Shown: positions 45,016 to 61,376 of the stretch, one piece after another
How positions within the stretch are numbered: the stretch's first letter is position 1
Layout: every line of letters begins with the position of its first letter
Assembly: GCF_002161215.1 (NCBI RefSeq)
Contig: NZ_NFMB01000008.1
Span: forward strand, 124,001 to 188,000
Length of the DNA stretch: 64,000 nucleotides
Direction: 5' to 3'
Source: Flavonifractor sp. An10
GTDB taxonomy: Bacteria; Bacillota; Clostridia; Oscillospirales; Oscillospiraceae
Position numbers and translations under genes: made by a program
Notes under the pieces: generated by a model
What the model saw: only the letters and a program-made list of their open reading frames with translations
What the model was told of the DNA's origin: nothing
Database searches by the model: none

Positions 45016-45038
45016 ACACAAAAAAAGGGAGGGTTATT

Positions 45039-46700: not shown

Positions 46701-46730
46701 CCGGCATTTTCAAACCTTACACCTACTGGA

Positions 46731-46765
46731 AGCAAGACCCGCCCGCCTGGGCGGGTCTTGCTTTA
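46731..46765 (+). terminator. Terminator of nhaC1
   Basis: AGCAAGACCCGCCC/GGGCGGGTCTTGCT with loop GCCT (46731-46744 with 46749-46762) and TTT after it. Confidence 0.9.
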
Positions 46766-46938
46766 CGCTTTTGTGCGTATTATGCAAATTTGCTGCCAAG
46801 AGGACTGCTGAATTGGTGATAAATGAAAGAAAATGGAGGATACTGGAACTAAACTCCCGGTTTTTGTGCGGGCCTTACAAAAAATTTGTGGATAAACTGT
46901 GAAGCGCTTACAAACTTTTTGTAAAACGCAAAAAAATA

Positions 46939-46967
46939 TTGCCAAATTGTTGACGATCCGCTATGAT
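46939..46967 (+). promoter_or_regulatory. Promoter of nhaC2
   Basis: TTGCCA (46939-46944), 17 bases, TATGAT (46962-46967), with the TATTGCCAAATTGT context of the nhaC1 promoter. The rest of the 46766-47028 gap is AT-rich and holds no gene. Confidence 0.85.
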
Positions 46968-46974
46968 GTTCAAC

Positions 46975-47005
46975 GAGTCCTTGGGTTGGGGAGCTTTAAG
47001 GATTC
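46975..47005 (+). promoter_or_regulatory. Conserved leader hairpin upstream of nhaC2
   Basis: GAGTCCTT (46975-46982) pairs with AAGGATTC (46998-47005) around GGGTTGGGGAGCTTT. Compared with the nhaC1 leader, the loop is nearly identical while one stem pair has switched from A-T to T-A and one from A-T to G-T, which supports selection for pairing. Confidence 0.65.
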
Positions 47006-47028
47006 AGAGATTGAATAGGAGGATTGTT

Positions 47029-48690
47029 ATGAGCTCACCGCGCAAGACACAATTCGGCAAATTTCTGTTAGTCCTGTTCGCCCTGGCTTCCATCCTGGTC
47101 ACCGTGGCCTTCGCAGAGGGTGACGCGCCCACCAGCGCTGCCTGGGGGACTGTCGTGTCCCTGCTGCCCCCTGTGGTGGCAATCGTTCTGGCCCTGATTA
47201 CCAAGGAAGTGTATTCGTCCCTGTTTCTGGGCATCATGGTCGGCTGCTTCCTGTATGTGAACGGCAACCCCCTGTTTGCCCTGCAGGACTTTGTTGACCG
47301 CCTGACCGGCAATGTGGGCGGCAACGCCGGCATCCTGATGTTCCTGGTCATCCTGGGCACCATGGTGGCCCTGATGATCCGGGCCGGCGGCTCCAAGGCC
47401 TACGGCGAGTGGGCTGTCAAGCACATCAAGACCAAGTCCGGCGCCCTGTGGGCCACCTTCATCCTGGCCATCGTGCTGGGCGTGGACGACTACTTCAACA
47501 ACCTGACCACCGGCAACGTGATGCGCCCCGTGGCAGACGGCCACCACATCTCCCGCGCCAAGCTGTCCTACATGTGCGACGCCACCGCCGCGCCCGTGTG
47601 CATCATGATGCCCGTGTCCTCCTGGGCCGCGGCCGTCACCGGCATCATCGGCAATGAGGAGGTGGGCTTCCAGATCTTCCTGAAGGCCATCCCCTACAAC
47701 TACTATGCCATCCTGACCCTGGTGTTCATCATCGTGATGACCTGCCTGAACATCGACTACGGCCCCATGAAGACCCACGAGGACAACGCCGCCAAGGGTG
47801 ATCTCTATACCACCCCCGAGCGCCCCTTTGCCGGTGCCGAGGAGATGAAGTTCAACCCCAACGGCAAGGTGTATGACCTGGTCATCCCCGTCATCATCCT
47901 GATCATCTGCTGCGTGTCCGGCCTGCTGATCGTCGGCTTCCAGAACGGCGGTACCGACATCCTCACCGCCTTCGCCAACACCAGCGCCGCGCCCGCCCTG
48001 GCTCTGGGCGGCCTGATTGCCCTGATCATCAACATGATCTTCTTCGCCATCCGCCGCTCCATGAGCTTCACCGAGCTGATGGACTGCCTGCCCGAGGGCT
48101 TCAAGCAGATGGTTCCCGCCATCCTGATCCTGTGCCTGGCCTGGACTATCGGCGACATCACCAAGGCCCTGGGCGCCCCCGAGTTCGTGGCCGGTATCGT
48201 GGAGGGCTTCGGCTCCAGCCTGGCCAACTTCCTGCCTGCCGTGGTCTTTGTTATCGCTGCCTTCCTGGGCTTCGCCACCGGCACCTCCTGGGGCACCTTC
48301 ACCATCCTGCTGCCCATCGTGATCCCCGTGTTCGCCGGCGTCAGCGCCTCTGAGCTGACCGTGGCCGACATCGGCCCCGGCCACGACATCCTGATGATCG
48401 CCATCGCGGCCACCCTGGGCGGCGCGGTCATGGGCGACCACTGCTCTCCCATCTCCGACACCACCATCATGGCCTCCACCGGCGCCCAGTGCTACCACCT
48501 GAACCACGTGGCCACCCAGCTGCCCTACGCGGTCACTGTGGCGGCAGTTGCCTTCGTCAACTATATCATTGCTGGTATGATCCAGAACGTGGTGATCGAT
48601 CTGATCATCGCCGTGGCCTCCATGGTGGTTGTCATGCTGATCATCGGCAAGGTCAATCACTCCATGAACATCCACTCTCAGCGCGACTGA
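47029..48690 (+). CDS. nhaC: Na+/H+ antiporter NhaC-like, second copy
   Basis: A 553-residue paralogue of nhaC1, nearly identical in the membrane core (SGALWATFILAIVLGVDDYFNN, GDHCSPISDTTIMAS) and diverging mainly at the N-terminus and in a few helices. ATG at 47029 begins the signal-like MSSPRKTQFGKFLLVLFALAS region and has ATAGGAGG upstream. Identical length and conserved promoter/leader show a tandem duplication of the whole unit. Confidence 0.87.
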   Translation: MSSPRKTQFGKFLLVLFALASILVTVAFAEGDAPTSAAWGTVVSLLPPVVAIVLALITKEVYSSLFLGIMVGCFLYVNGNPLFALQDFVDRLTGNVGGNAGILMFLVILGTMVALMIRAGGSKAYGEWAVKHIKTKSGALWATFILAIVLGVDDYFNNLTTGNVMRPVADGHHISRAKLSYMCDATAAPVCIMMPVSSWAAAVTGIIGNEEVGFQIFLKAIPYNYYAILTLVFIIVMTCLNIDYGPMKTHEDNAAKGDLYTTPERPFAGAEEMKFNPNGKVYDLVIPVIILIICCVSGLLIVGFQNGGTDILTAFANTSAAPALALGGLIALIINMIFFAIRRSMSFTELMDCLPEGFKQMVPAILILCLAWTIGDITKALGAPEFVAGIVEGFGSSLANFLPAVVFVIAAFLGFATGTSWGTFTILLPIVIPVFAGVSASELTVADIGPGHDILMIAIAATLGGAVMGDHCSPISDTTIMASTGAQCYHLNHVATQLPYAVTVAAVAFVNYIIAGMIQNVVIDLIIAVASMVVVMLIIGKVNHSMNIHSQRD

Positions 48691-48715: not shown

Positions 48716-48750
48716 AATCGGCCCCCGCTCCAATGGAGCGGGGGCCGATT
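48716..48750. terminator. Terminator hairpin, first copy (flanks element A)
   Basis: Perfect 16 bp stem AATCGGCCCCCGCTCC/GGAGCGGGGGCCGATT, loop AAT. On the minus strand it is followed by TCTCTT. The same hairpin occurs at 48953-48987. Confidence 0.8.
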
Positions 48751-48755
48751 CAGTG

Positions 48756-48946
48756 TGTCGAAAAAGCCTCGCAGAGTTCGCGCCCGCAGGCGCGAAAAAA
48801 TTAAAATCTGTTTTCTCCGGCGACATGTGCGTCGGAGAAAACACTTCTCAGGCCGCAAGTGAGGGATTTGTCCGGCTCAGGCGGACAAATCCTGCGCGCG
48901 GCGGACTGCATCCTGCTCGAAAAAGTGGCAAAGCCACTTTTTCGAC
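48756..48946. repeat. Multi-hairpin palindromic element, copy A
   Basis: About 190 bp with inverted ends TGTCGAAAAAG and CTTTTTCGAC. In order: GCCTCGCAGAG; hairpin H1 TTCGCGCC/GGCGCGAA with loop CGCA; linker AAAAATTAAAATC; hairpin H2 GTTTTCTCCG/CGGAGAAAAC with loop containing GACATG; ACTTCTC; hairpin H3 GGATTTGTCCG/CGGACAAATCC; hairpin H4 TCGAAAAAGTGGC-AAA-GCCACTTTTTCGA. The same order with different stem sequences occurs in element B. Noncoding. Confidence 0.85.
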
Positions 48947-48952
48947 GGCCTC

Positions 48953-48987
48953 AATCGGCCCCCGCTCCATCGGAGCGGGGGCCGATT
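48953..48987. terminator. Terminator hairpin, second copy
   Basis: The same 16 bp stem as at 48716-48750 with loop ATC, followed on the plus strand by GTTTTC. Together the two copies look like one bidirectional terminator split and duplicated around element A. Confidence 0.8.
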
Positions 48988-49017
48988 GTTTTCTGCCCGG
49001 GGTCTGGCGGAGGGGCC

Positions 49018-50184
49018 TTACCGGGTGATCCAGAACAGGTTGCCGTCGGTGACGAAGTTGGGCACGCTGTAGAGCACCAGGGCCTGGTCGATGCCGTTCT
49101 GCTCCACATAGTCCTTCACAGACAGGTGGTAGTACCGGGGGTCGATCAGGTGGATCTCGGAGTAGTGGGCGGTGAGGAAGGGCACCAGGGAGTCGGCGTA
49201 GGAGTCCCGGATGATCAGCAGCTTGGGGCCGTCCGGGTTGTTGGTGTTGGTCACCACACCCAGGGACTGGTTGCCGCCCAGGAACATGGAGTACTTGTCC
49301 TTCACGGACAGGAAGGACTCCACATAGAGGGCCCGCTGCTCCTCCACGGGGTTGCCGCTGTTGTCGTAGGTGTGGCTCACCACGGTGATGCCGTCGTCGG
49401 GCACGTAGGTGGTGATGGTGTCCGGCTTCACCCACCGCACGCCGGAGGAGGAGAACACGGTGCCGTAGAACTCGGTGGAGCGCACCGTGGGGGTGTACTC
49501 GCTGAGGGGGACGGGGGTGTACCCCAGGGCGGAGGCCAGGCCGGTGTAGCCGTAGTAGGCGCCCAGGCTGGTCCAGTGGTGGTCGGTGCGGTAGAAGATG
49601 TCCTCGTCCTTGTGCTCCATCAGGGGGGTGTACACGTCCGCCCAGGTTGCCCCGGTGACAGCCCCCTGGGCCTGGGCCATCAGGTCGGTCTGGCTGGCGT
49701 TGGGGGCGCCCTCGGGCAGCCGGTCGGCCCAGATGCAGGCCTGGGTGGGAATCAGGGAGAACACCACGGGGATGTCCACATTTTCCACAAACTTGTTCAC
49801 ATAATTCAGGTTTTCTGTCACCCGGTCGGCGGCGGGCTGGTCGAAGCGGGTAATCAGCGTGTCGTTGTCGGCGAAGTAGACGTTGTTGTTCTCCTTCTTG
49901 CCCAGGGCCCGCTCCGTGCGGGCCTTCAGATCCACCCATGCGTCCCGGTCGATGAACTGGTCGGTGGTATAGGTCTCAAAGTCCCGCATGAACTGGCCGT
50001 TGAAGAAGTTCCCGTCCCGGAAGAGCTTCTCCGGCGTGCCGAAATCCACGGCGGGCAGCTGCTCCAGGTTGCGGTTTTCCACCTCAGAGAAGGTGCGGTC
50101 GGGGGAGACGGCGTTGGCTACCAGGAACACCCCGATGAAGGCGCAGAACAGGGCGGTGATGAAAATGCAGTAGCGCTTGGTCAT
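49018..50184 (-). CDS. DHHW-motif secreted/membrane-anchored protein (AlgX/SGNH-like acyltransferase partner)
   Basis: A 388-residue protein with one N-terminal membrane anchor (CIFITALFCAFIGVFLVAN) and an extracytoplasmic domain. The TDHHWTSLGAYYGY motif (about 196-209) and IRDSYADSLVPFL (Asp-Ser pair) are those of the DHHW/AlgX-like SGNH hydrolase-fold proteins that work with an MBOAT protein to acetylate extracellular polymers. The MBOAT gene lies 17 bases upstream. The polymer is unknown. Confidence 0.85.
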   Translation of the reverse strand: MTKRYCIFITALFCAFIGVFLVANAVSPDRTFSEVENRNLEQLPAVDFGTPEKLFRDGNFFNGQFMRDFETYTTDQFIDRDAWVDLKARTERALGKKENNNVYFADNDTLITRFDQPAADRVTENLNYVNKFVENVDIPVVFSLIPTQACIWADRLPEGAPNASQTDLMAQAQGAVTGATWADVYTPLMEHKDEDIFYRTDHHWTSLGAYYGYTGLASALGYTPVPLSEYTPTVRSTEFYGTVFSSSGVRWVKPDTITTYVPDDGITVVSHTYDNSGNPVEEQRALYVESFLSVKDKYSMFLGGNQSLGVVTNTNNPDGPKLLIIRDSYADSLVPFLTAHYSEIHLIDPRYYHLSVKDYVEQNGIDQALVLYSVPNFVTDGNLFWITR

Positions 50185-50201
50185 GGTGGTTCCTCCTTAT
50201 G

Positions 50202-51602
50202 TCAGAATCGGAAATACAGGAAGGGGTTGTAGGTGGCGTCCACCAGATAGGCGGTGGAGAACACCAGCCCCGCCAGAAGCACCACCGGCAGGGCCGCCTT
50301 GACGGCCTTCACCGGCAGCTTTTTCCACAGCTTGGTCACCAGCGGCGTGGAGGCCACGGCGGCGATGATAAGCATGGGCAAAAACGAGGTAAAATAATAC
50401 CAGACGTTATCGTTGGTGAGGCCGCCGGGAGCCATGCCGAACATGGAGCGCAGGTAGACGCCCATGTGGGAGAAGTCCTCCACGGCGAAGATGGCCCAGC
50501 TCACCAGCACCAGGAAGAGGGTGTAGATGTGCTGCACGGCGGCGGGCAGCTTCTCCAGCAGCCTGCCCAGGAAGGCCTTCTCCAGGATGATGAGCACCGC
50601 GAAGTAGAGGCCCCAGATCAGGAAGTTCCAGCTGGCCCCGTGCCAGATGCCGGTGGCCGCCCATACCAGGAACAGGTTGAAGTACAGCCGGGGCTTGCTC
50701 ACCCGGTTGCCCCCCAGGGGGATATACATATACTCCCGGAACCAGGAGCCCAGGGAGATATGCCACCGCCGCCAGAACTCGGTGACCGACTTGGAGATAT
50801 AGGGGTAGTTAAAGTTGCGGAGAAACTCGAAGCCCAGCATCCGGCCCAGGCCCACGGCCATGTCGGAGTAGCCGGAGAAGTCGAAGTACAGCTGCAGGGA
50901 GAAGGCCACCACACCCAGCCACGCCCCCGCCACGGTGAGCTGATCGGCGGGCAGGGCCAGGATGGAATCCCACAGCTTGCCGATGTTGTTGGCCAGCAGC
51001 ACCTTTTTGGCCAGGCCCACGGTGAACACCTGCACGCCGGAGGCGAACTGCTCCGGCGAGTGGGTGCGGTAGTTCATCTGGTCGGCCAGCTCCTTGTACT
51101 TGATGATGGGGCCGGCGATGAGCTGGGGGAACAGGGTGACGAAGGTGCCGAAGCTCACCAGGTTTTTGGGCAGCTCCGCGTCTCCCCGGTAGATGTCCAC
51201 CGGGTAGGTCATGGTCTGGAAGGTGTAGAAGGAGATGCCGATGGGCAGGGTCAGTTCGAAGGTGGGCACCATGATGCCGAAGCCCTGGAGAGTAGTGGCC
51301 ATCAGCACCCAGTATTTGAAGAAGAACAGGATGGCCAGGTTCAGGCCCAGGGAGATGCCCACCGCCCACCGGGCCCCCTTGTCGTTGCCCCTGGCCTTGC
51401 ACCGGTAGACGATGATGCCGGCAAAGTAGTCCAGCACAATGGTGAAGAGCATCAGCAGGATGTAGACCGGCTCACCCCACCCGTAGAACACCAGGTTGAC
51501 CACCAGCAGCCACGGATTGCGCCATTTCAGGGGGGTAATATAGTAGACAAGCAATACAATGGGTAGATAGAGGAACAGAAAATACAGACTGGAAAAGACC
51601 AA
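50202..51602 (-). CDS. MBOAT family O-acyltransferase (AlgI/DltB-like)
   Basis: A 466-residue polytopic protein. The TTG at 51602 gives the family-typical start VFSSLYFLFLYLPIV, with AAGGGA about 10 bases upstream. The conserved pair of motifs RRWHISLGSWFREYMYIPLGG (read as RRWHISLGSW and FREYMYIPLGG) and GIWHGASWNFLIWG carries the active-site His. It moves acyl groups across the membrane to the DHHW partner, probably acetylating a surface polysaccharide. Confidence 0.9.
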   Translation of the reverse strand: MVFSSLYFLFLYLPIVLLVYYITPLKWRNPWLLVVNLVFYGWGEPVYILLMLFTIVLDYFAGIIVYRCKARGNDKGARWAVGISLGLNLAILFFFKYWVLMATTLQGFGIMVPTFELTLPIGISFYTFQTMTYPVDIYRGDAELPKNLVSFGTFVTLFPQLIAGPIIKYKELADQMNYRTHSPEQFASGVQVFTVGLAKKVLLANNIGKLWDSILALPADQLTVAGAWLGVVAFSLQLYFDFSGYSDMAVGLGRMLGFEFLRNFNYPYISKSVTEFWRRWHISLGSWFREYMYIPLGGNRVSKPRLYFNLFLVWAATGIWHGASWNFLIWGLYFAVLIILEKAFLGRLLEKLPAAVQHIYTLFLVLVSWAIFAVEDFSHMGVYLRSMFGMAPGGLTNDNVWYYFTSFLPMLIIAAVASTPLVTKLWKKLPVKAVKAALPVVLLAGLVFSTAYLVDATYNPFLYFRF

Positions 51603-51638
51603 CGGGGCATCATCCCTTCTCTTTGTACTCGGGCCGGG

Positions 51639-51668
51639 AAAACGCCCGGCAGGTGGCCCTGCCGGGCG
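51639..51668 (-). terminator. Terminator after the DUF4358 lipoprotein gene
   Basis: CGCCCGGCAGG/CCTGCCGGGCG (51643-51653 with 51658-51668, loop TGGC on the plus strand); on the minus strand TTTTCCC follows. It lies just upstream of the MBOAT gene. Confidence 0.8.
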
Positions 51669-51699
51669 CGTCACATTACCTTATTATACCCGCTAAAAC

Positions 51700-52389
51700 T
51701 CAGTTTGTATAGCTGTTAAATGCGGAAACCGCCTGGTCGGCGTACTCGCTGATGGCAAAGAGGATGTAGTTGCCGCTGGTCACCAGCTGGTAGTTCTCCA
51801 CCAGCTCCAGCTGCTCGGGCAGGTACTGAGACCACTGCTGCACCAGATCGGCCTGCCGCTTCTCCACGGCGGCCTTCACCGCGTCCATCTTGCCGTCCTT
51901 CACCTCGGCGATGAAGAACTCGGTGGCCTGGACGCTGATGGCGGGCATCTTGCAGACATAGGACACCAGATCATCGGTGTTGATGCCGTACAGGGCGGAG
52001 AGGGTCTCCGCGTCCACGTCGGACAGGGAGGGGATATCCAGCTGGGAGATGGCGTTCCAGGTGGACTGCACCACGTCCACCGTGGGCTCCGGCTCCACAG
52101 GAGCGGGGTGGGAGTGGGCTGGTGGAGGGGCGGAGGAGGAGGCGCGGAGGGCTTGGTGGAAGGCTTGGCACTGGGGTGTCGGAGGCTCCTCGAGGGCTCT
52201 CCTCCGCCGGCGGGTGGTCTCGGGCAGGACGGTCTCCTCCGGGGTGGGGTGGGCTCGGTCTCCGGGGTGCCGGTGGGCTCTCCACTGCGGGGTGTCGGTC
52301 TCGGGGCGGGCTCTGATTGCGCCGCAGGCGGTGAGCAGGCCCAGGCTCAGAACCCCGGCCAGGGCCAGGGAGAGGATTCGCTTGTTCAT
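51700..52389 (-). CDS. DUF4358-type lipoprotein with Pro-rich linker
   Basis: A 229-residue protein: lipoprotein signal (RILSLALAGVLSLGLLTAC), a low-complexity linker (about residues 23-105) and a DUF4358-like C-terminal domain (about 107-229) with TVDVVQSTWNAISQLDIPSL and NYQLVTSGNYILFAISEYADQAV. The linker in the translated frame is odd (HRHPGDRAHP, RRRRRAL), whereas neighbouring frames read as typical Pro/Thr/Ser/Glu linker, so the linker may contain compensating frameshifts. Confidence 0.72.
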   Translation of the reverse strand: MNKRILSLALAGVLSLGLLTACGAIRARPETDTPQWRAHRHPGDRAHPTPEETVLPETTRRRRRALEEPPTPQCQAFHQALRASSSAPPPAHSHPAPVEPEPTVDVVQSTWNAISQLDIPSLSDVDAETLSALYGINTDDLVSYVCKMPAISVQATEFFIAEVKDGKMDAVKAAVEKRQADLVQQWSQYLPEQLELVENYQLVTSGNYILFAISEYADQAVSAFNSYTN

Positions 52390-52469
52390 GGATCATTCTC
52401 CTTTTTTCTTGGTTTGCCCTTTCTTGGACGGCACTCACCGGAAAAAAGTTCCCTCTTTTCCGCAAATTT

Positions 52470-53690
52470 TTACAGGGGAATCCGCACCACGCCCAGCACG
52501 CCCCGCGCTCCGGCGCGCAGCTCCAGCCCGCCGCTGTGGGATTTTGCGATCTGCTCCACCAGCTTCAAGCCCGTGCCGTGGGCCGCCCCGCCGTCGGCGG
52601 CCAGGGCGGAGCCGCCCTTGGCCGGGGCGGGAACCGTCCCGCCCCCGTCGTCCTCCACCCACAGGACGCAGAACTTCCCGTCGGCCCGGGCCCCCAGGGT
52701 GATGGAGCACCCCTCCGGGTTGTGATTGACGCAGTTGTTCACCAGGTTGAGCAGAGCCCGGCGGAGCAGGGGGCCGTCGGCCTCCAGGGTGAGGGCCTCC
52801 GCCTCGGGGGGCAGATCCACCTCCAGGGCGTACCCCTCCTCCAGCCCGCCGTTGAGCACGTCGGCCGCCACCTGCCGCACCAGGGCGGCGGGGTGGAGGG
52901 TGCCCCGGCGGAGGGGCTGCATCTCGTAGTCCAGGCGCATGGTCAGGTTGAGATCGTTGACCAGCTCCCGCAGGGTCTGGCTCTGGCGGCGGATCACCGC
53001 CGCCTGCTCCCGCCGGGCGGGGGAGAGGTCGGGGGCGGCCTCCAGCTGCCCGGCGTAGCCCATGATCATGGACAGGGGGGTGCGGATGTCGTGGGACACG
53101 CCGTTGATCCAGTCGGAGCGGGCGGTGTCCCGCTCCCGCTGCTCCCGGCGGAACTGGCGGCTCAGCACCAGAGCGGTGAGGCCCAGCACGCACAGCAGGG
53201 CCAGCAGGAACAGCCCCGCGAACCAGAGGGGCACGGTGGCAAGCACCTCGGTGTCCAGGATGAAGGGGTGCTTCCAGGTGCTGCCCTTGGGGCTCCCCGC
53301 CACCAGCAGGCCGTCGGGCCGGATGCGCACCTGCACCGGGTAGTCGTTGAGGTACCACCGGGTGAAGGAGGCCACGTCGGCGAGGGTGTAGTGGCTTGGC
53401 ACGTCCTCCGGCTTGCCCTGCTGCCACACCACGTCGCCGTTCTCGTCGATGAGCATGGCCCACAGCTCCTTCTCCGCCAGGTAGTCGGCGGCGGTGAAGG
53501 TGTACCCGTCCTCCGTCTCGGTCAGGGCGGCGGACAGATCCGCCACCGAGGCGTTCCACGAGCTGCTCACCCCGGCGGAGGCCACGATGAAGGCCAGCAG
53601 GCCCCCCAGGGCCAGGATCAGCACCAGCACCGCCGAGGCGGCCACCAGCCCGGCCGCCACCAGGGTGCGGCGGAGGTTGCGGCCCCTCAC
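52470..53690 (-). CDS. Sensor histidine kinase of a lantibiotic-type two-component system
   Basis: A 406-residue kinase: membrane helix at about 10-37, extracellular domain to 152, second helix 154-179, HisKA with phospho-His200 (DWINGVSHDIRTPLSM) and an ATPase domain with NLVNNCVNHNPEG, VEDDGGGTVP and HGTGLKLVEQI. The small extracellular domain and the SpaK/BceS-like core fit a sensor of membrane-active peptides. The gene overlaps the regulator by 4 bases and is divergent from the ABC operon. Confidence 0.88.
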   Translation of the reverse strand: MRGRNLRRTLVAAGLVAASAVLVLILALGGLLAFIVASAGVSSSWNASVADLSAALTETEDGYTFTAADYLAEKELWAMLIDENGDVVWQQGKPEDVPSHYTLADVASFTRWYLNDYPVQVRIRPDGLLVAGSPKGSTWKHPFILDTEVLATVPLWFAGLFLLALLCVLGLTALVLSRQFRREQRERDTARSDWINGVSHDIRTPLSMIMGYAGQLEAAPDLSPARREQAAVIRRQSQTLRELVNDLNLTMRLDYEMQPLRRGTLHPAALVRQVAADVLNGGLEEGYALEVDLPPEAEALTLEADGPLLRRALLNLVNNCVNHNPEGCSITLGARADGKFCVLWVEDDGGGTVPAPAKGGSALAADGGAAHGTGLKLVEQIAKSHSGGLELRAGARGVLGVVRIPL

Positions 53691-54382
53691 GGCCGCTCCT
53701 CCCGGGCCAGGCGGTAGCCCAGCCCCCGGACGGTGAGCAGGTATTTGGGGTGGGAGGGGTCGGCCTCAATCTTCTCCCGCAGGCGGCGTATGTGCACCAT
53801 CAGGGTGTTCTCATAGCCCACCATGGGCCCCTCCCACAGCGCCTCGCACAGGGCGTCGATGGTGACGATGTTCCCCCGGTTGGCCGCCAGCTTTTTCAGC
53901 AGGGCGTATTCCTTGGCGGTGAGGGTGGCCTCGGTGCCGTCGGCCCGGCGCACCGTGCCGGGGCCCCAGTGCACCTCCGTGTCCCCCAGGCGGAGCACCT
54001 CCCGGGCCGGGCCGCCGTACACCCGGCGGAGTACCGCCCCCAGCCGGAGCAGCAGCTCCTGGGGCAAAAAGGGCTTGGTGATGTAGTCGTCCGCCCCCAG
54101 GCCCAGGCCCTGGAGCCGCGCCTCGTCCTCGTCCCGGGCGGAGAGAAAGAGCACCGGCACGTCGCCCCCGTCCCGCCGCAGCTCCCCCAGCAGGGCAAAC
54201 CCGTCCCCGTCGGGGAGCATCACGTCCAGCAGGGCCGCGTCCGGCCGCTGCCGGGCCCAGGCGGCCCGGGCCTGGGCGCAGTCGGCGGCCAGGGTGACGG
54301 CATACCCCGCCCCCTCCAGCAGCTCCCCCACCATGCGCCGCAGCTCCGGCGCGTCGTCCACCAGTAAAATGTGATAGGCCAT
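53687..54382 (-). CDS. OmpR-family response regulator
   Basis: A 231-residue regulator: receiver domain with Asp53 (ALLDVMLPDG) and a winged-helix DNA-binding domain (TLTAKEYALLKKLAANRG, ...YENTLMVHIRRLREKI, TVRGLGYRLA). ATG at 54382 is favoured by GGAGGAGAAG just upstream. It probably binds the CGTAAGG repeats at 54533-54572 to turn on the divergent ABC operon. Confidence 0.92.
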   Translation of the reverse strand: MAYHILLVDDAPELRRMVGELLEGAGYAVTLAADCAQARAAWARQRPDAALLDVMLPDGDGFALLGELRRDGGDVPVLFLSARDEDEARLQGLGLGADDYITKPFLPQELLLRLGAVLRRVYGGPAREVLRLGDTEVHWGPGTVRRADGTEATLTAKEYALLKKLAANRGNIVTIDALCEALWEGPMVGYENTLMVHIRRLREKIEADPSHPKYLLTVRGLGYRLAREERP

Positions 54383-54488
54383 GTTGATCTTCTCCTCCTG
54401 CGGGCGTATCCCGCCCGGCAAACGGCGCGTCTGGGAAGCCGCGCCCTACGGAGAGGTGTATCCGGGAACCCTCCCCGCCGTCCCTCCT

Positions 54489-54494
54489 ATTATA
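54489..54494 (-). promoter_or_regulatory. Minus-strand -10 box of the regulator-kinase operon
   Basis: TATAAT on the minus strand 107 bases upstream of the regulator start; no good -35 hexamer precedes it, suggesting activator dependence. Confidence 0.45.
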
Positions 54495-54532
54495 TCTTAC
54501 TTGTCCACCCTTTGCACCCGACCTGTGGAAAA

Positions 54533-54572
54533 CGTAAGGTAACCGTAAGGCTGGCTTCATGGGGACGTAAGG
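54533..54572 (+). promoter_or_regulatory. Three phased CGTAAGG direct repeats (response-regulator sites)
   Basis: CGTAAGG occurs at 54533, 54544 and 54566, i.e. spaced 11 and 22 bases, one and two helical turns, as in OmpR/PhoB-type tandem sites. They lie 42-81 bases upstream of the ABC ATPase start and between the divergent operons. Confidence 0.75.
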
Positions 54573-54613
54573 GAGAGGCCCTATCCTTGTCTTGTAACAA
54601 GGAGGTGTCCCTT

Positions 54614-55525
54614 ATGAACATCGTGGAGACCCGGGGCCTGTGCAAGCAGTACGGCCAGGCCATGCGGGTGAAGCAGCTGAATCTCTCCGTGCCCGAGGGC
54701 GCGGTGTACGGCTTTTTGGGCCCCAACGGGGCGGGCAAGTCCACCACCCTGAAGATGGTGCTGGGCCTTGCCAAACCCACGGCGGGGGAGATCACCGTCT
54801 TCGGCAAACATGTGAACCCCCATAACCGCATCGCCATCCTGAAACAGGTGGGCAGCCTGATCGAGAGCCCCAGCTACTACGGCCACCTGACAGGGGAGGA
54901 GAACCTGCGCATCGTCCAGACCCTCCGGGGTGCGCCGGAGAAGGACATCCAGGAGGTTCTGTCCATCGTCCGGCTGGACGGCCAGAAGGGCAAGCAGGTG
55001 GCCCACTACTCCCTGGGCATGAAGCAGCGGCTGGGCCTGGCCGCCGCCCTGCTGGGCTTCCCCAAGCTGCTGATCCTGGACGAGCCCACCAACGGCCTGG
55101 ATCCGGCGGGCATCCAGGAGATGCGGGAGCTGATCTGCTCCCTGCCCGGCCAGTTCGGCATGACGGTGCTGGTGTCCAGCCACCTGCTCTCCGAGATCGA
55201 CCAGATGGCCGACCACGTGGGCATCATCCGGGAGGGGGAGCTGGTGTTCCAGGACACCCTGGCCGCCCTCCACGCCCGGAGCCGCCACCACCTGGCCCTG
55301 CGCACCACCGACAACGGGGAGGCCGCCCGCCTGCTGGGGGAGAGCAGGATCCCCTGCACCCTGGAGGAAGGCTATCTGATCCTCCCCCTGCTTACCGACG
55401 CCGACGCGGCCAAGCTGTCCCGCTTCCTGGCCGCCCACCGGGTGGATCTGCTCCGCATGGAGGAGCGGCAGAAGAGCCTGGAGGACATCTTCCTGGAGCT
55501 CACGGGAAAGGCGGCGAGCCTGTGA
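54614..55525 (+). CDS. ABC transporter ATPase, lantibiotic immunity/bacitracin type
   Basis: A 303-residue ATPase: Walker A GPNGAGKST (36-44), signature YSLGMKQRLGL, Walker B LLILDEPTNGLDP and H-loop SSHLLSEIDQM; the extra C-terminal domain (about 220-303) is typical of BcrA/NukF/SpaF-type exporters. ATG has AAGGAGG 8 bases upstream. With the two permeases it forms an immunity-like exporter regulated by the divergent two-component system. Confidence 0.9.
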   Translation: MNIVETRGLCKQYGQAMRVKQLNLSVPEGAVYGFLGPNGAGKSTTLKMVLGLAKPTAGEITVFGKHVNPHNRIAILKQVGSLIESPSYYGHLTGEENLRIVQTLRGAPEKDIQEVLSIVRLDGQKGKQVAHYSLGMKQRLGLAAALLGFPKLLILDEPTNGLDPAGIQEMRELICSLPGQFGMTVLVSSHLLSEIDQMADHVGIIREGELVFQDTLAALHARSRHHLALRTTDNGEAARLLGESRIPCTLEEGYLILPLLTDADAAKLSRFLAAHRVDLLRMEERQKSLEDIFLELTGKAASL

Positions 55526-56271
55526 AGCTGCTGAGACTGGAGTTCTACAAGTGCCGCCGCCGGAGGATCACCCTGATCTGCGCCGGTATCCTGGCGGCCC
55601 AGCTGCTGTGGTTCGGGGCCTACCTGACCCGGCAGGATCCGGAGGATCTGGCCCAGGGGTGGATGCTCATGCTCTACAACCTGGCCCTGGTGGACGCCAT
55701 CCTCCTGCCCGTGGGCACGGCGGCGGTAGCCAGCCGAAACTGTGAGATCGAGCACAAGGGGGCCGCCCTCAAGCTGCTGGAGACCGCCATCACCCCCGGC
55801 CGGCTCTACGGCGCCAAGCTGGCCTGGGGGGCCCTGGTGCTGCTGGCCCTGGTGGCCGTGCGCACCATTCTGTTCACCGCCCTGGGCGTGTGGATGGACT
55901 TCCCCGGCGGGGTGCCCTGGGGGCGGATGGGGGTATTTACTCTTATCTCCTGGGCGGTGTCCATGATGCTCTACGCCCTCCAGCAGGGCCTGTCCCTCCG
56001 CTTTGCCAACCAGGCGGTGGCCCTGGTGTGCGGCATCTTCGGCAGCTTTGTGGGCCTCATGTCCATGCTGTTCCCCGTGTGGGTGCAGCGGTGCGCCCCC
56101 TGGGGGTACTACGGCCTGCTCTCCCTGACCCGGATGAACTGGGACGAGGCCACCCGGATCACCGACTTCTACTGGCGGTGGCCGGAGCCGGTGGATGTGG
56201 TGCTGCTCTGCCTGTGGGCGGCGGTCTTTCTGACGGTGGGACGGACCCTGTTCGTCCGGAAGGAGGTGTGA
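55522..56271 (+). CDS. ABC-2 type permease (EpiE/MutE-like), first subunit
   Basis: A 249-residue permease with about six membrane helices and the pattern of lantibiotic-immunity permeases (LRLEFYKCRRRRITLICAGILAAQ at the start, EIEHKGAALKLLETAITPGRLYGAKL early loop). GTG start overlaps the ATPase stop by 4 bases (GTGA). Confidence 0.82.
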   Translation: MKLLRLEFYKCRRRRITLICAGILAAQLLWFGAYLTRQDPEDLAQGWMLMLYNLALVDAILLPVGTAAVASRNCEIEHKGAALKLLETAITPGRLYGAKLAWGALVLLALVAVRTILFTALGVWMDFPGGVPWGRMGVFTLISWAVSMMLYALQQGLSLRFANQAVALVCGIFGSFVGLMSMLFPVWVQRCAPWGYYGLLSLTRMNWDEATRITDFYWRWPEPVDVVLLCLWAAVFLTVGRTLFVRKEV

Positions 56272-56274
56272 GCC

Positions 56275-57003
56275 ATGCTGCTGCGCGCGATCAAGGCCGA
56301 GGTGCTGAAGTGCTGCCGGGCGCCGGTGTGGCTGGCCTTCCTGGTGCTGCCCGTCTTTCCGGCGGTGCTGGGCACCTTCAACTACCTGGGCAACCTGGAG
56401 GTGCTGGAGGATCAGTGGTACAGCCTGTGGAGCCAGCACACCCTGTTCTCCTCCATGTTCTTCCTGCCCGCCCTGTTCGGGGTGTTCTGCGCCTGGCAGT
56501 GGCGGCTGGAGCACACCGATCACAACTGGAACGCCGCCCTCACCGCCCCTGTCCCGGTGGGGACCCTCTACCTGGCCAAGCTGGCGGTGGACGCGGTGGT
56601 GTCCCTGCTGGCCATGGCCTTCATCGGGGTGCTGTTTGTGCTCAGCGGGAAGGTGGCCGGCATCACCGCCCCCCTGCCGCCGGAGCTGCCCCGGTGGCTG
56701 CTCTTCGGGGCCCTGGGCGGCGTGGTGGTGTGCGCCGTGCAGCTCTTTTTCAGCCTGGCCATCCGGGCCTTCGCCCCGCCGGTAGCCATGGCCCTGGTGG
56801 GGGGCGTCTTCGGCCTGATGGTCACCAGTCAGGGCTGGGGCGCCGCCTTCCCCTACTCTCTGCTGGCCCTGGGCATGGCGGCCAACAATCCCCGGATGGA
56901 GCTGCCCCTGCCCGCCTTCCTGGCCGGCTGCGCCGTGTATCTGGTGCTGGCCGCCGCCCTGTCCATCCGCTGGCTGTCCCGCCGGGACGTCAGCACCGCC
57001 TGA
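56275..57003 (+). CDS. ABC-2 type permease (EpiG/MutG-like), second subunit
   Basis: A 242-residue permease with six helices, related to the first subunit (RAIKAEVLKCCRAPVWLAFLVLPVFPA; EHTDHNWNAALTAPVPVGTLYLAKL loop corresponding to EIEHKGAALKLLE...). It starts 3 bases after the first permease. The pair with one ATPase matches the FEG-type arrangement. Confidence 0.82.
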   Translation: MLLRAIKAEVLKCCRAPVWLAFLVLPVFPAVLGTFNYLGNLEVLEDQWYSLWSQHTLFSSMFFLPALFGVFCAWQWRLEHTDHNWNAALTAPVPVGTLYLAKLAVDAVVSLLAMAFIGVLFVLSGKVAGITAPLPPELPRWLLFGALGGVVVCAVQLFFSLAIRAFAPPVAMALVGGVFGLMVTSQGWGAAFPYSLLALGMAANNPRMELPLPAFLAGCAVYLVLAAALSIRWLSRRDVSTA

Positions 57004-57017
57004 GCGCCCGTCCATGC

Positions 57018-57053
57018 AATACGTCCCCGCAGGAGATCCCGCGGGGACGTATT
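57018..57053 (+). terminator. Terminator of the ABC immunity operon
   Basis: AATACGTCCCCGC/GCGGGGACGTATT with a 10-base loop (57018-57030 with 57041-57053), then TGTCTG. Confidence 0.75.
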
Positions 57054-57061
57054 TGTCTGCG

Positions 57062-57478
57062 TTACAGCTTCCGGTCGAAGTAAGCCAGGGCGATCAGCTC
57101 CGTGACAAAGAGAATCAGGTACATGAGGCCGAAGGCGATGGTCAGAGCGGCGCAGATCTCCCTCCCGAACAGCCCCACGGGCAGGCGGCTGAGAATCAGC
57201 AGGGCCAGGCAGAGCCACTGGCTCCAGGTGAGGGCGGCGCTCTTGCTGCGCAGCTTCACCAGCCGGTTGCGCTCGTCCAGCTCGGCCAGCTTGTCCTCCC
57301 GGCTCAGGGCGTGGGAGAGGCTGCGCCCCAGAAAGGTGGCGCCCAGCACCAGACAGGCCGCCATGAGGATCGTGCCCTTGATGTCGAAGCCCGTCCAGAT
57401 GCTGGTGGCCAGCATGGCCAGGCCAATGGCGGTGAGGAAGAGCCCCCAGCCGAAGTTGGTCTTGTTATAGATTTTCAT
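57062..57478 (-). CDS. Membrane protein of the second Xre/membrane module
   Basis: A 138-residue protein with four hydrophobic segments (FLTAIGLAMLATSIWTGF, ILMAACLVLGATFLG, LCLALLILSRLPVGLF, LTIAFGLMYLILFVTELIAL). The central EDKLAELDERNRLVKLRSKSAALTW loop has the same 'xDERN..v..kskA' pattern as QKDERNVALGNAAKA in the first module. Start overlaps the Xre gene by 14 bases. Function unknown. Confidence 0.72.
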   Translation of the reverse strand: MKIYNKTNFGWGLFLTAIGLAMLATSIWTGFDIKGTILMAACLVLGATFLGRSLSHALSREDKLAELDERNRLVKLRSKSAALTWSQWLCLALLILSRLPVGLFGREICAALTIAFGLMYLILFVTELIALAYFDRKL

Positions 57479-57695
57479 ACATGCGATCCTCCAGTTCCTT
57501 GTTTTCCTCCAGACAGCACAGCTCCTCCACCGTGGTGTGGAACACCAGGGCGATGCGGTAGGCCAGCATCAGGGAGGGGCTGTACTGCCCCTTCTCCAGG
57601 GAGATGATGGTGCGGGACGACACGTGAACCAGGTCGGCCAGCTGCTGCTGGGTCAGGCCGGCGGCCTGGCGCAGCTCGCGCACGCGGGTTTTCAA
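57465..57695 (-). CDS. Xre-family transcriptional regulator, second module
   Basis: A 76-residue HTH protein (TRVRELRQAAGLTQQQLADL, SSRTIISLEKGQYSPSLMLA) closely resembling the 41099-41302 regulator in the recognition region (SLEKGxYxPSxxLA). It overlaps its membrane partner by 14 bases and lies under a promoter with twin palindromic operators. Confidence 0.88.
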   Translation of the reverse strand: MKTRVRELRQAAGLTQQQLADLVHVSSRTIISLEKGQYSPSLMLAYRIALVFHTTVEELCCLEENKELEDRMYENL

Positions 57696-57719
57696 GAGAT
57701 CACCTCCGGGGCGGGATAT

Positions 57720-57747
57720 GAAGTATACTTCATGAAGCTAGCTTCAT
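57720..57747. promoter_or_regulatory. Twin 14 bp palindromic operators
   Basis: TGAAGTATACTTCA (57720-57733) and TGAAGCTAGCTTCA (57734-57747) are perfect adjacent palindromes between the start codon and the -10 box of the second Xre gene. Likely binding sites of its product. Confidence 0.85.
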
Positions 57748-57775
57748 ATTACACGATGCGCACAGGCCTGTCAAG
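57747..57775 (-). promoter_or_regulatory. Promoter of the second Xre module
   Basis: Minus strand TTGACA (57775-57770), 17 bases, TAATAT (57752-57747); the -10 box touches the upstream operator. Confidence 0.82.
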
Positions 57776-57820
57776 GGGGGAAGCAAAATTTTATGGGAGG
57801 AGCGGAACAGACAGACAGCG

Positions 57821-58025
57821 TGTCGAAAAAGCGGCTTTGCCGCTTTTTCGAGAAAGGCCACATGGCGGAAGGGGTTCGTTTTCTTGCGAAAAAGTCACCC
57901 CTTCCGCCATGAGAAGTGTCATTTCCGAGGCGCATGTCCCCGGAAATGACGAATTTTGATTTGATTCCTGCGGCTGCGGCCGCAGGAACTCTGCGAGGCT
58001 TTTCCTCACGGAGGGTTTTTCGACA
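57821..58025. repeat. Multi-hairpin palindromic element, copy B (inverted relative to A)
   Basis: About 205 bp. Read on the minus strand it has the order of element A: TGTCGAAAAA end; GCCTCGCAGAG; H1 TTCCTGCGGC/GCCGCAGGAA with loop CGCA; AAATCAAAATTC linker; H2 GTCATTTCCG/CGGAAATGAC with a loop containing GACATG; ACTTCTC; H3 ATGGCGGAAGGGGT/ACCCCTTCCGCCAT; H4 TCGAAAAAGCGGC-AAA-GCCGCTTTTTCGA. Stem sequences differ from A but pairing and loops are kept. One extra 16-base insert lies near its 5' end. Confidence 0.85.
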
Positions 58026-58031
58026 GCCTGA

Positions 58032-58063
58032 GAGCGCCCGCCTTCCGGGGAAGGCGGGCGCTC
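58032..58063. terminator. GC hairpin between element B and the surface-protein terminator
   Basis: 15 bp stem GAGCGCCCGCCTTCC/GGAAGGCGGGCGCTC with loop GG; no strong T-run on either side. Confidence 0.6.
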
Positions 58064-58070
58064 CGCGTGT

Positions 58071-58097
58071 GGAAAAAGCGGCTTTGCCGCTTTTTCC
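58071..58097 (-). terminator. Terminator of the SLH surface-protein gene
   Basis: GGAAAAAGCGGC/GCCGCTTTTTCC with loop TTT (plus strand) shortly after the stop; on the minus strand the stem ends in TTTTTCC. Its core is identical to hairpin H4 of element B. Confidence 0.75.
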
Positions 58098-58103
58098 GCA
58101 TGT

Positions 58104-61100
58104 TCAGAGGGTGAGGCCCCGGTGGAGGATGACGGCCATCTCCGCCCGGGTGAGGGTGCCCTGGGGGTTGAGCCGGCCCACCTGATCCCCCTTGATGACG
58201 CCGGCCTGGGCCATGGCGGCCACGGCGGGCCGGGCGGCGGCGGACACGGCCGCGCCGTCGGGGAAGCGGGTGAGGAAGCTGTCCTGGGCGGAGGAGATCC
58301 CCCGGCCCGCCTTCTGCATGGCCCGGTAGAGGAACACCATGGCGTCCTCCCGGGTCACCGGGGCGGTGGGGCGGAAGGTGTTGCCGGCCTCGGCCTGGGC
58401 GATGCCCAGGGCCTTGGCGGTGGCCAGGGCGGAGGCGTAGTAGCTGCCGGCGGGCACGTCGGCGAAGTTGTCGGAGCCGGCGGCGGTGAAGCCGAAGGTG
58501 CGCACCAGCATCAGCAGGTAGTCGCAGCGGGTGAGCTGGTCGGCGGGGGAGAAGGTGGCGCCGGTGCCGGTGCCGGTGGTGATGCCGTAGCGGGCCAGGA
58601 ACTCCACCCCGGGGGCGGCCCAGCCGTAATTGCCCATGTCGCTGAAGCGGGGGGCGGAGGCGGGCGGGGTGACGGTGATCTGTACCACGCCCTGGTAGGT
58701 TGCGCCGGTGGAGTCAGTGCCCACGTAGGGAACCACCACCGTGCCGCTGAACTCGGCCTTGGGCTGGAAGGCCACCTTGTCCAGGGGGTAGACGCCGCTG
58801 GCGGCATAGTCCAGATTGGCGTCCACGGTGCCCCGGTACCGGGCGGGGCCGGTGTAGTCAAAGTACAGCCGGCCGCCGTTGAGGTTGGGGGTGGAGAAGC
58901 GGACGGAGCGCAGGGTTCGGCCGCCCCGGGCGGCGCAGGCGGCGGCGAAGTCGCCGGAGCGGAGGTTCACGGCGGTGCCGTCGGAGGTGTAGCGGATCAC
59001 GTCGGGCTCCCGCAGGGCGGTGAACTGGATTACCAGCGCGCCGGAGAAGGTCTTGCCGCCGGTGTTCCGGCCGGTGAAGGGGATGGTCACCCGGTTCTCC
59101 GTGGCGGAGCCGGGCACAAAGGTCAGGTCGGACAGGCTGGGGGAGCCGCTGCGGTAGTATCTGGCGGAGCCCGCCGCCTGCTCGCCGGCCCGGTCGTACA
59201 GGTAGTAGAGCTGGCCCGTCCGCCGGTCGCCGCCCCAGTCAAAGGTGAGGTAGTCCAGGCGGTCGCCGGTCTCGTCCCGGCAGAAGCGCTCCAGCTTCTC
59301 GGCGTCCAGGCGCACCGGCTGGCCGGCGGCGCCCTCCAGGGTCAGGCTGGCGGAGACGCCGGAGCCCACCTTGAAGGCCAGGGTGCCGGTGAAGTCCTTG
59401 CCGGAAGTGCTCCGGCCGGTGAAGCTCAGGGAGACGGTGCCCTCATAATCCCTGGCGGGAACGAAGGTCAGCTCGTCCAGATAGGGGGCGGCGGAGCGGT
59501 AGTAGCGGGCGTTCCGGTCGGCCTCCCGCTGGCCGGACTTGTTGTACTGGTGGTACAGGGTGCCCTTGGCGGAGGAGGGCAGGTCGTTAAAGCGGATATA
59601 ATCCAGGGTGCCGCCCGCCGCGTCCCGGCACAGGTCGTTGAAGTCCCGGTCGTCCAGCGCCACGGAGCCGTTGACCGGCACCTTGTAGGTCACGTCGCCC
59701 TTGCCGGCGGTGCCCACGGTGAGCTCCACCGTGCCGGAGAAGGTCTTGCCGCTGGTGTTCCGGCCGGTGAAGGGGATGGAGACCTTGCCCTCAAATTTCC
59801 GGTCGGGGACAAAGGCGACGGTGTCCAGGTCGATCTGCCTGCGGCTGGGGCTGTAGTAGCAGGCGTCCTTGTCCCGCAGGGCCGTGCCCTCCCCGGTGCG
59901 GCTGTTGAAGTTGCAGTACAGGGTGCCCTTGGAGGAGGCGGGACGGCTGAAGGTGACGAAATCCAGGGTGCCGCCCACGGCATTCCGGCAGGCGGACTGG
60001 AAGTCGTTCCGGTTGAACAGGGCGGCCCCGCCGGTGGGGGCGGCGTATTTGATGACGCTGCCGGCGGCGGACAGGGCCAGCTTGACCGTGCCGGAGTAGG
60101 TGTTGCTGCCCGTGTCCACGGCGTCGTAGCTCACGGTGACCGCGCCGGTGCTCCCCGAGGAGGCCTGGATGGAGACCCGGTTCAGATCGGCGGCGGAGAA
60201 GGTGCTGTTGGACAGGGACACGGCCTTGCCGTTGTAGAGCAGCTCGCCGCCGCTCACCTTGCGGAAGGTGACGGATTTCAGATCATAGCCGTACACGGCC
60301 CGGCACACGCTCTGGAAGTCCTGCTGGCGGAGGGCCTGTTCGCTTCCGGCCTGGGTGCTCTTGTAGGCGATATCCTGGACGGAGCCGGGATTTACCGTCA
60401 CCTGGCAGGTGAGGCGGGTGCGCTGGCCGCTGTAACTCACGTCGGCGGTCACCGTCACCAGGTTGGATTTGCCGGACAGCTGGCCGCCGGTGGCGGTGAC
60501 GGTGGCCCCGGAGGAGCCGGACAGGCGGAGGGCGGCGTTTCCGCCAGACCAGGACACGGTGGCCCCGGCGGGCAGGCCGCTGACGGTCAGGTTGACGCTC
60601 TGGCCCACCCGCACGGCGGCGGACTGGGGCAGGGTGGGGACGGCGGCGGGGGTAACGGTGACGGTGCAGGTGTCCCGGTAATTGGTTCCGTTGTAATTGA
60701 AGGTGGCGGTGATGACGGCGGCGCTCTGGCGGACAGGGGCCTTGGCGGTCACCCGGCCGGTGGAGGGATCCACCTCCGCCACGCTGGAGTCACTGGTGCT
60801 CCAGGTGACCTCCTGGCCCTGGGGCACGGTGACGGCGGAGAGGGTGATGGTCTGCCCGGGGGCCAGGGTCTGGCTCTTGGGGGAGACGGTCACGCCGGCC
60901 TGCAGCGGCTGGTTGACGGTGACGGTGCAGGAGGCGGTTTTCCCGCCGTCGCTGGTGGTGGCGGTGATGATGGCGGTACCAGCGGCCCTGGCGGTGACCA
61001 TGCCGGTGCTGGAGACCGAGGCCACATCCGGCCGGTCGCTGTCCCAGCGGATGCCCTTTTCGGCGGCATCGTCCGGCTGTACGGTAGCCCGCAGCGTTTC

Positions 61101-61376
61101 CGCTTCCCCGACTGAGAGGCTCAGGCTGGACTTGTTCAGGCTGACGCTGGTGACAGGCACGGGCTTGGGCTCGGGCGTGGGGAGGGAAGGCTCGGCAGGA
61201 GGGGTGGAGTTCCGATTCGGAGGGGTGGGAGACTCGGTGGGCTGTGCCGTGAGGGTGACCGGCCCGCTTGTATCGGTGAGGACTCCCGGTTCCGCTGCCA
61301 GGGCGGCGGGAACCAGCCCCACCACCAAGAGCAGAGCCAGACAGGCCGACAGGAGCCGTTTTGCAGCATGCTTCAT
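58104..61376 (-). CDS. SLH-domain surface protein with Ig-like and five novel-type repeats
   Basis: A 1090-residue secreted protein: signal peptide (1-28), Thr/Pro linker (40-75), two bacterial Ig-like (BIG2) domains (about 76-155 and 160-243), a related domain (245-330), five ~105-residue repeats (about 333-437, 441-556, 560-671, 674-788, 791-903) and three SLH motifs (about 909-960, 968-1028, 1033-1090) that anchor it to wall polysaccharide. Repeats share DF..(A/V)CR..G..LDYVTF, a YY.S turn, LTFVP..., and (I/V)PFTGR.T.GKTFSGT. No enzymatic motif; a structural or adhesive S-layer-like role is likely. Confidence 0.87.
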   Translation of the reverse strand: MKHAAKRLLSACLALLLVVGLVPAALAAEPGVLTDTSGPVTLTAQPTESPTPPNRNSTPPAEPSLPTPEPKPVPVTSVSLNKSSLSLSVGEAETLRATVQPDDAAEKGIRWDSDRPDVASVSSTGMVTARAAGTAIITATTSDGGKTASCTVTVNQPLQAGVTVSPKSQTLAPGQTITLSAVTVPQGQEVTWSTSDSSVAEVDPSTGRVTAKAPVRQSAAVITATFNYNGTNYRDTCTVTVTPAAVPTLPQSAAVRVGQSVNLTVSGLPAGATVSWSGGNAALRLSGSSGATVTATGGQLSGKSNLVTVTADVSYSGQRTRLTCQVTVNPGSVQDIAYKSTQAGSEQALRQQDFQSVCRAVYGYDLKSVTFRKVSGGELLYNGKAVSLSNSTFSAADLNRVSIQASSGSTGAVTVSYDAVDTGSNTYSGTVKLALSAAGSVIKYAAPTGGAALFNRNDFQSACRNAVGGTLDFVTFSRPASSKGTLYCNFNSRTGEGTALRDKDACYYSPSRRQIDLDTVAFVPDRKFEGKVSIPFTGRNTSGKTFSGTVELTVGTAGKGDVTYKVPVNGSVALDDRDFNDLCRDAAGGTLDYIRFNDLPSSAKGTLYHQYNKSGQREADRNARYYRSAAPYLDELTFVPARDYEGTVSLSFTGRSTSGKDFTGTLAFKVGSGVSASLTLEGAAGQPVRLDAEKLERFCRDETGDRLDYLTFDWGGDRRTGQLYYLYDRAGEQAAGSARYYRSGSPSLSDLTFVPGSATENRVTIPFTGRNTGGKTFSGALVIQFTALREPDVIRYTSDGTAVNLRSGDFAAACAARGGRTLRSVRFSTPNLNGGRLYFDYTGPARYRGTVDANLDYAASGVYPLDKVAFQPKAEFSGTVVVPYVGTDSTGATYQGVVQITVTPPASAPRFSDMGNYGWAAPGVEFLARYGITTGTGTGATFSPADQLTRCDYLLMLVRTFGFTAAGSDNFADVPAGSYYASALATAKALGIAQAEAGNTFRPTAPVTREDAMVFLYRAMQKAGRGISSAQDSFLTRFPDGAAVSAAARPAVAAMAQAGVIKGDQVGRLNPQGTLTRAEMAVILHRGLTL

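Follow-up and report, generated by a model that had tools for sequence, protein, structure and literature searches.

Two copies of a short mobile DNA element, built of a conserved 5′ box and four hairpins (H1–H4), were found in a 64,000-nucleotide stretch of Flavonifractor sp. An10 (contig NZ_NFMB01000008.1, positions 124,001 to 188,000; the whole stretch is called the window). Many gut Oscillospiraceae carry the element, with copy numbers that reach dozens in one genome. It is dispersed in multiple copies, it has the ends of an IS1182-family insertion sequence (IS), empty sites with a single terminator were found, and hairpins are duplicated on its two sides. The elements are probably non-autonomous miniature inverted-repeat transposable elements (MITEs) of IS1182 type that duplicate terminator hairpins, with a core fold under selection, most likely as RNA.

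Limits and parts of the element

A first-pass annotation, made from the window sequence alone, had described two elements with their parts in the same order. Rereading of the sequence agreed: both have the box GCCTCGCAGAG, H1 with a CGCA loop, an AT-rich linker, H2 with a GACATGYGC loop, the linker ACTTCTC, H3 and H4. Both elements were thus present as described, but their true limits, defined by the end motif, were longer than those first given. The ends were CAGTGTGTCGAAAAA..CGACGGCCTC in copy 1 and CAGGCTGTCGAAAAA..CGACACGCTG in copy 2. The features, in window positions, were as follows.

48751–48952, + strand: element copy 1, 202 bp, H3 type A
48716–48750, no strand: left copy of the duplicated terminator hairpin of copy 1 (direct repeat D10, 35 bp)
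48953–48987, no strand: right copy of the duplicated terminator hairpin of copy 1 (direct repeat D10, 35 bp)
48751–48765, + strand: left terminal inverted repeat CAGTGTGTCGAAAAA of copy 1, an exact match to the end motif at G000:C14:172751-172765
48766–48776, + strand: conserved 5′ box GCCTCGCAGAG of copy 1, from sequence comparison
48777–48796, + strand: hairpin H1 of copy 1, loop CGCA, from sequence and predicted fold
48810–48842, + strand: hairpin H2 of copy 1, with loop GACATGTGC at 48822–48830
48843–48849, + strand: conserved linker ACTTCTC of copy 1
48849–48908 (limits approximate), + strand: hairpin H3 type A, an inner hairpin and a conserved internal loop
48917–48945, + strand: hairpin H4, best read as the transposon right-end hairpin, terminator-like on both strands
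57816–58030, − strand: element copy 2, 215 bp, H3 type B
57989–57999, − strand: conserved 5′ box GCCTCGCAGAG of copy 2
about 58032–58063, no strand: terminator-like hairpin adjoining copy 2 on a single side, without a partner on the other side (locus L031, flank score 7)

Searches with each window copy, in which 60 of the listed places in the own genome were fetched and read, gave 57 distinct copies in these 60 loci. Two types of H3 were recognised, type A with an inner hairpin and a conserved internal loop, and type B with a long hairpin. Own-genome copies with readable ends measured 201–203 bp (type A) or 215 bp (type B), and other sizes also occurred in relatives. Some copies carried an extra insert in the loop of H2 or H1. 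The H2 loops of L009–L012 (own genome) and of L262, L272 and L303 (genome G259) carried structured inserts of about 45 nt that resemble each other, common to type A copies of one species and type B copies of another. Tandem box-H1-H2 units, as if joined near the H2 loop, were seen at L102 (4807–5034, 71-nt period) and L361 (about 1420–1560).

Duplication of target hairpins

The two hairpins flanking copy 1, a feature absent from the first-pass annotation, were identical at 33 of 35 positions. Likeness between left and right flanks exceeded the 99th percentile (17) of 600 random pairings in 20 of the 60 own loci and the random maximum (24) in 14 of them. A second flank-duplication test was positive for 15 of 46 own copies and for 32 of 103 copies from named relatives. 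Identical repeats of 24–40 bp, at most 4 nt from the end motifs, were present in 20 of 41 bounded elements, which were listed on a repeat score of at least 19 and so give no rate. The duplicated repeat was a hairpin with a different sequence at each site. In L101 and L226, the two flanking hairpin copies had loops reverse complementary to each other, which suggests hairpin inversion.

The site of copy 1 was read in 18 congeneric stretches. Both flanking genes were found in 12, and the core box was absent from all 12. Seven of these had a single short terminator (44–70 nt between alignment ends) and four had longer spacers. The congeneric stretch L214 (G250) carried another kind of element, which shares the ends and is flanked by two exact copies of a 27-bp hairpin; L204 has this hairpin once. 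Six of the 18 stretches had the right flank only, and one of them (L215) has an element copy about 1 kb away. The palindrome or hairpin target that characterises IS1182-family MITEs was thus found by the flank tests, at the empty sites and in the identical repeats. Chance similarity was ruled out by the flank tests against random pairings and by covariation against shuffles.

IS1272 and TnSha1 of the IS1182 family insert into hairpins, some of them confirmed transcription terminators, with no primary-sequence preference; the target hairpin is lost wholly or partly, and the available text of these reports gives no duplication for new insertions (PMC5678879, PMC4923244). The present element resembles them in its putative IS1182-family transposase and hairpin targets, as far as that text goes, but differs in having a whole hairpin on both sides. 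Inverted-repeat-replacing transposition as in IS1272 did not fit, since it entails loss of the hairpin without duplication. In the portions of the literature examined for the IS1182 family, this target outcome is not reported.

Ends shared with an IS1182-family insertion sequence

The end motif CAGNNTGTCGANAAA had 80 exact matches in the own genome and its reversed control none. An IS of 1,568 bp in the own genome (L223, 2663–4230) had the same ends as the element. It encodes a 465-aa transposase of the IS1182 family (NF033551, 370 bits, cut-off 270; Pfam DDE_Tnp_1_6 and DUF772), and it is flanked by a duplicated 36-bp hairpin (score 32), the same target outcome as that of the element. The right-end hairpin of this IS resembles H4, and with the same layout in both, H4 is best read from sequence as a transposon end hairpin. 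The own genome contained seven matches to IS1182 transposases. Together with the empty sites and the duplicated target hairpins, this IS supports the suggestion in the first-pass annotation of a mobile palindromic repeat. Explanations by a group II intron or by a bridge-RNA (IS110) system were rejected, given the match of the ends to those of an IS1182 element and the duplicated target.

L226, L227 and L228 (own genome, 162 bp) and L214 (G250) hold a second type of small element, which shares the ends and the duplicated hairpin and has a different interior with hairpins of its own. At L224 (1884–3182), a transposase with its best match to IS481 (195 bits, under the cut-off of 224) lay between an element of this 162-bp type and a further TTTTTCGACACGCTG end.

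Fold and covariation

The predicted RNA folds of the window copies had energies of -96.8 kcal/mol (copy 1, z -7.7) and -114 kcal/mol (copy 2, z -10.6), and none of 200 dinucleotide shuffles was as good in either case. Near-duplicates by k-mer similarity were excluded from the type division and the pair-type counts that follow, as loci short of flank were from the second flank-duplication test above and from the placements of the 97 and 45 copies below. Simple motif rules divided the copies into 63 of type A, 27 of type B and 91 others, the last including true A or B copies with unmatched motifs. Ten of the 63 type-A candidates were removed (three by a length filter, seven by hand), and covariation was tested in the remaining 53 sequences for H1 and H2. 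Pairing was found in 96.3% of H1 and H2 cells and double changes at 17 of the 20 pairs. Double-changed cells numbered 187, against 48.1 ± 7.8 in shuffled alignments (0 of 500 as high) and 17–44 when the pairing was slid, indicating that covariation in H1 and H2 went beyond the controls, as in structured RNAs.

Among 151 non-redundant elements, nine of the 12 H2 pairs were at least 94% Watson-Crick and were made by several pair types. H2 pair 2 was G·T in 96, A-T in 36, G-G in 11 and G-C in four. In H3, the T of a conserved GTG stood opposite a G in 40 of 53 predicted folds. Loops and linkers were nearly invariant and stems varied across genera. The H1 loop occurred 135 times as CGCA and never inverted, and the H2 loop was inverted in none of 242 elements, counts that are biased because many loci were found by a forward box-and-loop pattern or as best model matches. 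H4 loops were found in both orientations (TTT 21, AAA 9).

The first-pass annotation had held that the fold is selected, or copied by a mechanism that needs it, and that a structured RNA family was possible; the strong covariation with fixed loops, and the compensatory changes described below, support this. The T-A to C-G swap that it reported in H4 was seen again on rereading both copies. Its interpretation did not hold for H4, which behaved unlike H1 and H2 in having loops in both orientations. Nor can H3 be one stem covarying between the window copies, which carry the unrelated types A and B.

Changes at fixed loci

Seven pairs of loci, besides the tandem at L102, were alike on both flanks, and three of these orthologous pairs showed double changes that preserved pairing. 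L104/L137 had two such changes, both in H2; L159/L180 had one in H1, and L346/L017 had one in H4. In the last pair, a G·A mismatch of H2 was also flipped to A·G, and H1 and the inner H3 were replaced. The L059/L262 elements, with flank identity of 94–98%, differed at a single substituted position and by an insert of 46 nt in a loop.

Other pairs differed in type, with unlike interiors at a shared junction in different species. At L014/L272 the junctions agreed, but one interior was of type A and its counterpart of type B; at L022/L303 the left junction agreed and the interiors were again A and B; and at L110/L197 the flank and H1 agreed, with a different type from H2 onward. Sequence comparison suggests that copies swap their interiors by recombination. 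An apparently independent insertion, with its own end, was found at the L022 site (L345), and so recurrent insertion into the same site has to be taken seriously as an alternative to the exchange of interiors. The sites of eight old-looking own copies were read in 20 stretches, of which 18 were without the box; L293 and L303 had it, and L293 had H1 and H4 only.

Distribution

A covariance model of the core (box-H1-H2) matched 136 of 250 genomes of the family, in 74 of the 106 sampled genera; at most 17 candidates were scored per genome, and per-genome copy counts are therefore lower bounds. Further copies that keep their pairing were thus abundant, where the first-pass annotation had named their absence, or loss of pairing, as what would refute it. 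Two-genome searches gave 37 copies in G262, 20 in G259, 18 in G252 and five in G264. In a scan of the class, four of 391 genomes matched, three of them within Oscillospiraceae. A pattern scan of named genomes gave at least 113 stretches. Titles among the 80 matches listed included Oscillospiraceae, Ruminococcaceae, Flavonifractor, Pseudoflavonifractor, Intestinimonas, Oscillibacter, Sporobacter and the like, and others were of Clostridiales, Eubacteriales or Clostridia at large. The core pattern also occurred, by sequence, in nine viral-contig stretches.

The pattern GGACATGYGCC was compared with its reversed control in 30 genomes outside the family. It was more frequent in G282 (7:0), G298 (9:2), G265 (7:3) and G280 (5:1), and in several further outside genomes the control was higher. 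Twenty outside stretches, with one match each, were read: a stem of 10–12 pairs was present in five (L384 and L387 of G282; L391, L394 and L396 of G298), and no such stem was found in the G265 or G280 stretches among them. Copies in G298, of another family, had the same order of hairpins, the GACATGTGC loop and TGTCGAAAAAG-type ends, and were otherwise dissimilar in sequence; at L394 a duplicated terminator stood beside the element. G282, also outside the family, had similar AT-rich forms. Two further families of the class thus have divergent forms with the same loop, a kinship that rests on few copies read by eye.

The first-pass annotation did not recognise the element as a described family, and the searches agreed: no Rfam match at cut-offs and no description in the open-access literature searched were found. 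An Rfam scan of the window matched tRNA and the S10 leader only and not the element, and a permissive Rfam 15 scan of five loci gave four matches, all far under the gathering cut-offs. The S10-Clostridia ribosomal leader match lay at 11481–11555 (41.3 bits).

Position among genes

Copy 1 is flanked by the 3′ ends of two genes, one for a Na+/H+ antiporter (46963–48690, + strand) and one DHHW/AlgX-like (49018–50184, − strand), and an S-layer-homology gene (58104–61376, − strand) is situated upstream of copy 2. A lone H4-like hairpin, GGAAAAAGCGGC..GCCGCTTTTTCC, adjoins copy 2 at 58065–58096. Two adjacent repeats (D2 and D12) with a spacing of about 1,990 bp occupy 44993–48690, the second inside the antiporter gene, and suggest a tandem gene pair.

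Placement was scored with the H4 side as right and with genes called by a simple composition rule. Among 97 copies from named relatives, neighbouring genes were convergent at 44, both leftward at 38, both rightward at 13 and divergent at two. The corresponding numbers were 25, 18, 11 and three for 57 own copies, and 18, 17, eight and two for the 45 that passed a stricter filter. A gene 3′ end faced H4 in 82 of the 97 placements, and the codirectional pairs were split 38:13 (p 0.0006). The plain explanation is that H4 serves as a terminator for the right-hand gene, which accounts for the orientation bias.

Discussion

We propose that an IS1182-family transposase moves these elements. The hairpin of an intrinsic terminator would be the target, with joining at the hairpin feet; a step of cruciform or hairpin-foot cutting, followed by repair, would give one hairpin copy on each side, and the neighbouring genes would thereby keep a terminator. 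Selection on the + strand in its folded form, most likely as RNA, probably maintains the core (5′ box, H1, H2 and H3), since the loops and linkers stay constant, the stems covary, certain G·U pairs persist and compensatory changes occur at fixed loci. Read-through transcription may yield the fold as an RNA that acts, for example, in transcript stabilisation or processing, or in aid of the element in trans. The mobile part of this is near to known biology; the conserved core with changing interiors is the unusual part.

Several results weigh against this proposal. Both the 5′ box (one mismatch allowed) and the H2 loop were absent from the IS at L223, so that the interior was not derived from this partner; MITEs with interiors unrelated to their partner are known. 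The core and IS1182 transposases were unassociated across 250 genomes (52 with both, 84 with the core alone, 42 with the transposase alone and 72 with neither; odds ratio 1.06, p 0.90), a lack of linkage that is not defining by itself, given incomplete drafts and the possible loss of partners. Both end motifs were missing in 70 of 103 copies from named relatives. No left-hand gene read into the element on its + strand in 40 of 97 placements. Outside H2 pair 2, the preference for G·U over A·C was mild (22 against 10 in H2, 17 against 11 in H1; pooled 39:21, p 0.03) and less than expected of a transcribed RNA. The orthology of the pairs with compensatory changes rests on their flanks, and in L346/L017 the sequence immediately to the left was too diverged to exclude separate insertions. 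To these is added the bias in loop conservation and orientation given above.

That the element is a MITE with no RNA role seems rather unlikely. Its arms would be copied at the DNA level, by template switching at quasi-palindromes or cruciform resolution, and its loops would be alike by recent ancestry of active copies. Stems that are almost wholly Watson-Crick with few G·U pairs, inverted loops in H4 and in the target hairpins of L101 and L226 (a mark of hairpin isomerisation), and recent bursts of near-identical copies, e.g. in G218, are all consistent with this, but fixed loops and linkers with varying arms across genera are the opposite of what arm copying alone would leave. No inverted H1 or H2 loop was seen, and neither the G·U at pair 2 of H2 nor the flipped mismatch (G·A to A·G) of L346/L017 should have survived such copying.

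It is unlikely, too, that a host regulatory RNA (a small RNA, 3′ untranslated region or attenuator) lies in, or was captured by, a MITE and that copies are retained for regulating or terminating their neighbours. Such an RNA would fit seven copies of G119 and three of G193 (a biased choice, as best model matches) that lack clear ends, mostly lack a duplicated hairpin and keep the fold with different stems. The near-identical elements of L059/L262 and the bias of right-hand genes toward H4 would fit as well, but H4 as a terminator explains that bias, and the sites are mostly lineage-specific, as in the 18 of 20 stretches without the box. Mobilisation of the core by several transposases, IS1182 being one of them, with ends supplied genus by genus, is improbable: it agrees with the missing genome-level association and with the degenerate or missing ends in many relatives, but readable ends in G218 (another genus) and G298 (another family) are of the TGTCRAAAAA type, and hairpins are duplicated in some copies.

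Beyond the proposed IS1182-type MITE with a selected core, a wider reading is offered tentatively, as possible rather than probable. The elements would represent a class-wide family of mobile structured RNAs that share a four-hairpin architecture, in which the GACAUGYGC loop does not vary, and that travel within IS1182-type transposons able to duplicate hairpins. Their stems would change in step at fixed loci and their hairpins would be swapped as modules, the fold being the inherited unit, serving their own spread or co-opted as a 3′ RNA signal.

Like ERIC and REP/BIME, the element is a palindromic intergenic repeat. BOX, RUP and SPRITE of Streptococcus pneumoniae are dispersed structured intergenic repeats, too; they are thought to be parasitic, are almost entirely absent from other streptococci (PMC3049150) and are inserted into one another (reviewed in PMC10969869). 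As far as the available text of these sources describes them, the present element differs in the presence of its core in 74 of 106 genera, its covarying stems and its target hairpin duplication. QMITE2 and other bacterial MITEs are IS-derived and intergenic, give stable stem-loop transcripts and have lost their ends in some copies (PMC10969869). The direct repeats of QMITE2 are 7–9 bp, whereas the identical repeats of the present element are palindromes of 24–40 bp, and the available part of that review makes no mention of covarying stems with fixed loops for QMITE2 or other MITEs.

These elements offer a natural experiment on hairpin targeting, with many terminators whose states before and after insertion can be read, whereas the IS1182-family cases in the published text available lose the hairpin. 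Duplication of the terminator would explain how dozens of intergenic copies are carried with little harm. With the core in 136 of 250 genomes sampled from a major gut family, any function that it has would be widespread.

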